NCBI GenBank assembly: GCA_016928115.1
Contig: JAFGLI010000007.1
Location: 76,364 to 109,417, forward strand
DNA from: Candidatus Woesearchaeota archaeon
Lineage (GTDB): Archaea > Nanobdellota > Nanobdellia > Woesearchaeales > UBA9642
Length of the DNA stretch: 33,054 bases
Reading direction: 5' to 3'
Each line of letters begins with the position of its first letter. Within the stretch, counting starts at the first letter, position 1. A program made the position numbers and the translations under genes. The notes beneath the pieces were generated by a model. The model was not told the DNA's origin. It saw nothing but the letters and a program-made list of their open reading frames with translations, and ran no database searches. Positions 20,078 through 25,100 of the stretch are shown piece after piece.

Positions 20078-20120
20078 AACATTTATATATTTAATTTCAC
20101 AGTGATTGCGCAATCATTTG
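20078..20120 (+). promoter_or_regulatory. TATA-like element plus perfect 14-bp palindrome TGATTGCGCAATCA (20103-20116)
   Basis: aaacatttatatatttaa then TGATTGCGCAATCA, identical to its reverse complement, about 36 nt upstream of ATG 20152. Confidence 0.6.
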
Positions 20121-20151
20121 TTTTTTCTAAAAACTGAGAGGTGGCGAAAAA

Positions 20152-20226
20152 ATGACCAAGAAAAAAGCTAAAACAACAAAAAAGGCCAAGACAAAGAAAA
20201 AATCAACTAAGAAAAAAAAGAAATGA
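20152..20226 (+). CDS. Lysine-rich basic microprotein (24 aa)
   Basis: gagaggtggcgaaaaaATG gives MTKKKAKTTKKAKTKKKSTKKKKK* (15 of 24 Lys). Confidence 0.5.
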   Translation: MTKKKAKTTKKAKTKKKSTKKKKK

Positions 20227-20237
20227 GGTGGTGACAA

Positions 20238-20333
20238 ATGTCTGAAGATGATTTTGATGATGAACCTTTAGAAGATGAAGACAACGAAGACGATGATGAA
20301 GATTATGGTGGAGATGACGACGAAGACTGGTGA
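20238..20333 (+). CDS. Acidic microprotein (31 aa)
   Basis: tgaggtggtgacaaATG gives MSEDDFDDEPLEDEDNEDDDEDYGGDDDEDW* (21 of 31 Asp/Glu). Confidence 0.5.
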   Translation: MSEDDFDDEPLEDEDNEDDDEDYGGDDDEDW

Positions 20334-20351
20334 ATAAACACTTTTTCTTTT

Positions 20352-20900
20352 TTATTTTTTTAATTCTTTTGAAACTCTTTCAATCAATAACCATCCTTTT
20401 TTTAAGTTTGTATTTATTTCTTCAGTTAGTTTTTCAATATATTTTTTAGAAAGATTCTCAAATGGAAGATAAATAACTTGAGAGGTTTTTGCTTCTATTA
20501 TTATATTAGGGCTTGTTCTTTTTATTGAAGTTTTTTTCCAGCCTGATTTCCTGAAGACGTCAGCAAGAAGGTTTGCTTTTTCAATATTTACTGCTCTTAT
20601 ATGAATTATGGGCCCTTCTGCCCTGAGCCATCTTCCTTTTTCCTGCAGAGAATATAATTCATTGATTTTATTTTTATTTATCAAATCATGATAATTAAGA
20701 AACCATTCTGTATTTTTTTTAATCAGCTTTGGCTTTAAAATTTTGACTCTTCCACTGCAGCTTGATGTTGTGAAATACTCTTTTTTATTATTTATTAAAC
20801 CCATAAGTGGTTTTATTTTCTCGTCTATAGAACCCTTTTTTGACTTGTCTTTTTTGCTTAAGATATCTGCTTTTTCCTTCTGAAATAAATATTCTTCCAT
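20352..20900 (-). CDS. taw3: tRNA wybutosine-synthesis methyltransferase Tyw3/Taw3-like
   Basis: GSIDEKIKPLMGLINNKKEYFTTSSCSGRVKIL; EGPIIHIRAVNIEKANLLADVFRKSGWKKTSI. Confidence 0.88.
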   Translation of the reverse strand: MEEYLFQKEKADILSKKDKSKKGSIDEKIKPLMGLINNKKEYFTTSSCSGRVKILKPKLIKKNTEWFLNYHDLINKNKINELYSLQEKGRWLRAEGPIIHIRAVNIEKANLLADVFRKSGWKKTSIKRTSPNIIIEAKTSQVIYLPFENLSKKYIEKLTEEINTNLKKGWLLIERVSKELKK

Positions 20901-24872: not shown

Positions 24873-25100
24873 TTACTTTCTTCCTCTTGCCATCTTGGCT
24901 CTTGAAATGTCTCCGTTTTTGTCTACAAAATACAGGTAACCTGATTGTTTCTTGACTCCTGCTCTTGCTACTTTCTGGGTTCCTTTCTTTGCTTTTCTTC
25001 CTCTTGCCATAGTAGCTCTGGAAACATCTCCGTTTTTATCTACAAAGTATAGATATCCTTTTTCTTTTTTCACGCCTACTTTTGCTACTTTTTCTGCCAT
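24873..25100 (-). CDS. Small basic protein of two near-identical ~31-aa repeats
   Basis: AKVGVKKEKGYLYFVDKNGDVSRATMARGRK / ARAGVKKQSGYLYFVDKNGDISRAKMARGRK; ggggtg RBS upstream. Confidence 0.8.
   Translation of the reverse strand: MAEKVAKVGVKKEKGYLYFVDKNGDVSRATMARGRKAKKGTQKVARAGVKKQSGYLYFVDKNGDISRAKMARGRK

Follow-up and report, generated by a model that had tools for sequence, protein, structure and literature searches.

A co-oriented pair of lysine-rich and aspartate/glutamate-rich micro-ORFs in a Woesearchaeota-type archaeon and its recurrence in related genomes

In the stretch of 33,054 nucleotides of archaeal DNA analysed here (the window), two tiny ORFs follow each other on one strand, the product of the first consisting mostly of lysine and that of the second mostly of aspartate and glutamate. 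Are sequences so short and so simple genes at all, and if they are, why do they lie side by side and what could their products do together? The preliminary description had reported two adjacent ORFs with 15/24 lysine and 21/31 acidic residues, 11 nt apart, each behind its own ribosome-binding site and both downstream of a TATA-like element and a perfect palindrome, and all of this was confirmed to the base.

The two-gene unit and its signals

The features of the unit are as follows (positions in the window).

20082..20089, plus strand: TATA-like promoter element, TTTATATA, by direct reading of the sequence
20103..20116, strand not applicable: perfect palindrome, TGATTGCGCAATCA, close to where transcription is expected to start
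20136..20144, plus strand: Shine-Dalgarno (SD) site of ORF1, GAGAGGTGG, complementary to this genome's own 16S 3' end
20152..20226 (ATG to TGA), plus strand: ORF1, lysine-rich micropeptide of 24 amino acids, MTKKKAKTTKKAKTKKKSTKKKKK
20225..20230, plus strand: SD site of ORF2, GAGGTG, overlapping the stop codon of ORF1 and likewise complementary to the 16S 3' end
20238..20333 (ATG to TGA), plus strand: ORF2, Asp/Glu-rich micropeptide of 31 amino acids ending in Trp, MSEDDFDDEPLEDEDNEDDDEDYGGDDDEDW
20342..20361, plus strand: T-rich stretch, probably a terminator of archaeal type that the convergent TYW3 gene shares
20352..20900, minus strand: TYW3 gene, convergent and next downstream (Pfam E 8.7e-31)

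The lysines of ORF1 are encoded by nine AAA and six AAG codons, and the acidic residues of ORF2 by nine GAT, seven GAA and five GAC codons, synonymous codons being mixed in both ORFs. Since the 3' end of the 16S rRNA of this genome reads ...GGATCACCTCCT, GAGAGGTGG and GAGGTG are proper SD sites. Fusion of ORF1 to ORF2 by frameshift or read-through is ruled out by an in-frame TGA at 20232-20234, which lies in the spacer (20227-20237) just before the ATG of ORF2. AT-rich boxes resembling TTTATATA are found upstream of other acidic or paired units, for example at L126, L127, L136 and L240, and T-rich runs lie 3' of most other pairs. With the divergent LemA gene upstream and a convergent gene downstream, the arrangement of this lone pair fits a short transcript of its own, although its transcription is inferred from the layout. 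Overall, there is good support for a genuine two-gene unit in the window, which is not annotated and has a TATA-like box of its own, two SD sites and a T-rich end.

The opposite possibility is that the ORFs are not genes at the protein level, and that the DNA specifies leader peptides or a regulatory RNA or is A/GA-rich sequence left open by chance. The low complexity and extreme shortness of both ORFs speak for this, but the mixed synonymous codons and the SD sites do not agree with it, and there is no same-strand gene directly downstream to attenuate, the next one being the convergent TYW3, by which a leader peptide or attenuator is ruled out. Moreover, when the whole 773.8-kb genome was scanned for SD-led ATG micro-ORFs of 14–70 amino acids, 187 were obtained; of these, ORF1 alone reaches 50% Lys, and ORF2, its neighbour, alone reaches 50% Asp/Glu. 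No ORF of either type occurred in 60 genomes (46 Mb) simulated with a third-order Markov model built from this genome. Together with the maintenance of the pair across diverged genomes, described below, this makes the non-coding explanation improbable. A second basic/acidic couple, which came up in a looser scan on contig C7, is an artefact, an out-of-frame reading in the acidic tail of a 291-aa ORF. Elsewhere in the window (24873-25100, minus strand), a 75-aa protein consists of two near-identical repeats of the KVAKVGVKKEKGYLYFVDKNGDVSRATMARGRK type and has no match in Pfam; a single-repeat relative with a basic tail lies at L142 2801-2938.

Recurrence and pairing in related genomes

Relatives were searched with one pattern for an SD-led acidic N-terminus and another for an SD-led ORF with a Lys run, both of which undercount as pattern searches do, and each yielded many micro-ORFs in the order (Woesearchaeota-type). 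Nine further genomes of the order contain basic and acidic micro-ORFs paired on one strand, either of which may come first; with the window included, these pairs and the array of G190 add up to ten genomes with seven family labels (f1, f5, f23, f62, f63, f76, f81).

G103, basic first as in the window: MPKGKKKAAKKKK, 11 nt, MSFYEDDEEEELDDEDFDDDDYDDDDDDY
G027, basic first: MPKDKKKDKGKGKKK, 19 nt, MNFAFKDEEDEDDFEEEDSFDDDEDW
G130, basic first: MAKKKKAAAKKKKK, 15 nt, MEGVEYPEYDEEMDDDNGWDYDGDDDD
G009, opposite order: MYNDEDGDDQDYDDSDYDDSDDSGKDEDDF, 18 nt, MAKKKAPAVKKKK
G080, opposite order: spacer of 35 nt
G191, opposite order: spacer of 41 nt
G254, opposite order: spacer of about 133 nt
G207, opposite order: spacer of 119 nt
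G190, L298 / L331 (about 6977-7780 of L331), minus strand: array of five charged micro-ORFs

The spacing of the pairs thus ranges from 11 to about 133 nt, and the gene order varies. The G103 pair shows the same kind of stop/SD overlap as that in the window. The array of G190 is headed by a fusion of a basic and an acidic part, MPPRKKKKNEGNDEDFEDEDKEEPDPDDDDRWDKDY, followed by two Lys-rich ORFs, an acidic ORF of 55 aa and another Lys-rich ORF; upstream of the array lie a zinc ribbon and a regulator of AsnC/Lrp type. In G383, which belongs to the same class and a different order, the basic and acidic ORFs form a divergent couple. A GTDB-wide search with a junction pattern gave 45 matches, mostly due to chance, and found again the G103 pair (Woesearchaeota UBA119); it also brought up an acidic micro-ORF from an Aenigmatarchaeota genome. 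The lone acidic micro-ORF MISEEEDDFDEDDEDEEDFEDDDEE at L182 6752-6829, which has its own TATA-like box, likewise belongs to an Aenigmatarchaeota genome and thus to a lineage beyond the window's order. At L164 1425-1533 two Lys-rich micro-ORFs lie in tandem, MAKKKKAKKK and then MAKKKSKKSAKKCSCC, the second with Cys residues at its end.

In the window's own family, the pattern search of five genomes (G001-G005) found no pair and, in four of them, neither peptide; the fifth, G002, has a lone acidic ORF, MKYWLKDDDMDDGDDEDSDEDSGDNDW, at a different locus, and in a protein search of the family with ORF2 (E ≤ 10) the sole match was ORF2 itself. Most pair loci, and most families, differ in their flanking genes. 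Conservation of the pair at the LemA-HtpX locus was rejected, as about 30 LemA neighbourhoods in relatives carry no pair. Two kinds of recurring neighbours were also considered and are too few to build on: an AsnC/Lrp-type regulator, which flanks three loci (besides G190, a pair or Lys-rich ORF in G191 and G140), and MscS-like genes, which lie within several kb of three loci (G140, G191 and the window).

To avoid circularity, the pairing count was limited to Lys-rich loci found with the basic-only pattern, and the pairs of G009, G103 and G254, first found via the acidic pattern, were kept outside it. A partner was defined as an acidic micro-ORF of at least 8 aa with at least 40% acidic residues, no more than 200 nt from the Lys-rich ORF. 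Such a partner is present at 6/25 Lys-rich loci, on the same strand in five of these, while about 0.04 partners were expected from the rate in the window genome (3 in 774 kb under the same loose rule), and the rest of the same 182 kb contains no acidic micro-ORF away from the Lys-rich loci. The observed pairing is about 140 times the expectation, a figure which is strong but not exact, since genomes of related organisms are only partly independent and family f63 contributes two of the six paired loci. Furthermore, G027 and G103, which belong to one genus, carry the pair at a syntenic locus whose flanking proteins are about 58–65% identical; order, SD sites and charge are kept there, and the peptide sequences have diverged. 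Likewise, G191 and G254, of different genera in f63, share an upstream zinc-ribbon ORF, the acidic and basic ORFs and a downstream zinc-ribbon ORF, and the nucleotide alignment within these ORFs is heavily gapped.

These results support the conclusion that the pairing of the peptides far exceeds chance: it is found again in distant families, has been kept at syntenic loci and is seen once in fused form. Because this recurrence, persistence and fusion are far beyond chance, low complexity arising by drift alone, which had been named as a possible refutation, is itself refuted. Charged microgenes recur as a class in Woesearchaeota-type archaea and their relatives, and the unit in the window is one instance. 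Sequences this simple cannot prove common descent; the pairs may have arisen independently, and this would in itself point to selection for the arrangement. What the data support best is that the pair represents real genes, selected for charge and shortness, that tend to be co-encoded. If translated, they would rank with the smallest and most extreme protein-coding genes on record, and since they fall below the usual annotation cut-offs, the whole class may be missing from the annotations of DPANN archaea.

The search for conservation was less favourable to the palindrome, for which autoregulation of the pair had been suggested. TGATTGCGCAATCA is present in a single copy in the 774-kb genome, where 84 perfect 14-bp palindromes exist, 15 of them with at least six G+C, and the upstream sequences of the other pairs contain no counterpart. 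The palindrome is real but weak evidence; as a genome-wide operator it was rejected on account of its single copy, and an operator role at this locus is unproven.

Joint or separate action of the two peptides

Judging from their composition, both peptides should be disordered, and complex formation and condensation of nucleic acids by the pair are plausible. The two products probably either associate with one another or vie for shared nucleic-acid targets. As a tentative first choice, held with somewhat less than even confidence, we assume by analogy a disordered polycation/polyanion micropeptide pair that acts on nucleic acids or on each other and forms a charge-neutral buffering complex similar to that of linker histone H1 and prothymosin alpha. 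The Lys-rich peptide would attach without specificity to DNA or to rRNA/mRNA. The Asp/Glu-rich peptide, in which a Trp or another aromatic residue often stands at the C-terminus, would mimic a nucleic acid and bind cationic surfaces, that of the Lys-rich peptide among them. When co-expressed, the two would assemble rapidly and reversibly into a charge-neutral complex, by which binding and condensation would be limited or buffered. The preliminary description had spoken of a co-expressed, charge-complementary pair; the co-oriented genes with promoter-like and T-rich signals and the recurrent pairing strengthen that view, co-expression itself being the inferred part. On the other hand, peptides this short may be too weak for tight complexes at physiological salt.

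The main rival, to which we give a lower but still substantial probability, is that the peptides act separately, the Lys-rich one as an accessory of the nucleoid or ribosome and the acidic one as a regulator of another cationic protein, and that they are adjacent because microgenes tend to settle side by side or to use one promoter. It would account for the 19/25 Lys-rich loci without an acidic partner within 200 nt, for the common lone acidic micro-ORFs with their own TATA-like boxes (L126, L127, L128, L136 and L145) and for the lack of a fixed order and spacing. However, it does not readily explain the excess of pairing over expectation, the persistence of pairs at syntenic loci and the basic-acidic fusion.

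The frequency of single peptides bears even more on a toxin-antitoxin module, in which the polycation would be toxic through binding to nucleic acids or membranes and the polyanion would neutralise it. Two tiny co-oriented genes, as in type II systems, with a stop/SD overlap and complementary charge are suggestive of it, but unlike in type II systems the pair is not obligate, the order is unfixed and no toxin or antitoxin family is matched. Many Lys-rich peptides of the order have no acidic partner close by, and at most a lone acidic relative exists in the window's own family. An obligate pair, as the strict form of this earlier proposal demands, is therefore unsupported, and we regard a toxin-antitoxin function as very improbable.

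A further class of micro-ORFs is relevant here. The order has many SD-led micro-ORFs in which a Cys-rich head is joined to a Lys tail (L241-L259, e.g. L253 3891-4048, L256 3122-3178 and L258 4013-4075; MGCCGGKKKKK, MGCCCCEKPKKKKKK, MPCGSCGAKKKTTKKKKK and MCTMCAKHKKKK). Several of these loci adjoin genes that we take, by eye and not by profile, to encode Fur, peroxiredoxin, superoxide dismutase and desulfoferrodoxin. As the Lys tail in this class (e.g. MGCCCCEKPKKKKKK, MPCGSCGAKKKTTKKKKK) is of the identical type, and as DtxR and FeoA genes lie near the pair in the window, a role in the response to metal or redox stress could be considered, with the acidic peptides as cation binders and the Lys tails as anchors that fix small heads, those of the Cys-rich class included, to nucleic acids or membranes. 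However, an acidic partner was found at 0/13 scorable Cys-Lys loci, the DtxR and FeoA genes are on the opposite strand beyond TYW3, and the neighbour names rest on inspection by eye. This role is unlikely, if less so than a toxin-antitoxin function.

Replacement of histones by the Lys-rich peptide was also considered. Histone (PF00808) was not detected in the window genome, which is 91.5% complete, so that its absence may be a gap, and the genome has a separate Alba gene. Histone is present in all 13 other genomes tested, including all other pair genomes tested, and such a replacement is unlikely in general.

Relation to known systems and the terminal tryptophan

ORF1 and ORF2 have no match in Pfam (E ≤ 1) or NCBIfam, and the open-licence literature yielded no description of such co-encoded polycation/polyanion micropeptide pairs. 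Within these family libraries and this literature, no family or prokaryotic system of this kind was found.

For H1 and prothymosin alpha, it is established that oppositely charged proteins form disordered complexes of high affinity (PMC7661507). Like them, the pair in the window combines a polycation rich in Lys (15/24) with a polyanion rich in Asp and Glu (21/31); shared, too, are low complexity, predicted disorder and a presumed association by charge. Unlike these eukaryotic proteins, the peptides are shorter than 50 aa, prokaryotic and encoded by side-by-side genes, and no homology was found; H1 and prothymosin alpha are much longer and, to our knowledge, not co-encoded. ORF1 is also like Lys-rich nucleoid-associated proteins in being small, Lys-rich and of low complexity; chlamydial Hc1 and Hc2 are among these and are longer, and we know of no acidic partner for such proteins. 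The candidate lysine-rich nucleoid-associated protein of Methanomassiliicoccus luminyensis, with 74 aa, is longer than ORF1 too (PMC7613761). Unlike histone and Alba nucleoid proteins, neither ORF1 nor ORF2 has a histone fold or an Alba domain in Pfam. The ribosomal microproteins eL41 (about 25 aa) and bTHX are very short, extremely basic and Arg-rich; ORF1 is equally short and basic, but it has neither Arg nor an aromatic residue.

A broader generalisation of the joint reading, that of a charge-buffering complex, may be drawn, which we consider less likely than not: free-standing polycation and polyanion micropeptides would be a widespread, overlooked class in Woesearchaeota and related DPANN archaea, in many lineages co-expressed in pairs, and would act on nucleic acids as a charge buffer or coacervate of minimal size, the prokaryotic counterpart of H1 plus an acidic chaperone with about 60 residues combined. 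A pair of this kind in a small archaeon would offer one of the simplest systems in nature for the study of coacervation and of disordered complexes driven by charge, and with it the management of nucleic acids in such cells could be tested directly.

The acidic tails of single-stranded DNA-binding (SSB) proteins, such as T7 gp2.5, end in a hydrophobic or aromatic residue. ORF2, with its Asp/Glu run, resembles these C-terminal tails, which compete with ssDNA for one surface according to a study cited in PMC5686142; unlike an SSB protein, it is a free-standing acidic peptide of 31 aa with no OB-fold and no domain match. The C-terminus of ORF2 is DDEDW, and the recurrence of a terminal Trp is an addition to what had been observed earlier. 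In the collection of 24 acidic peptides, Trp is the last residue of 13, and Phe or Tyr that of two more; when the two from a Trp-specific pattern are left out, Trp is C-terminal in 11/22. The terminal Trp is a specific motif open to testing, and the peptides that carry it were found in families f1, f10, f23, f39, f63 and f86.
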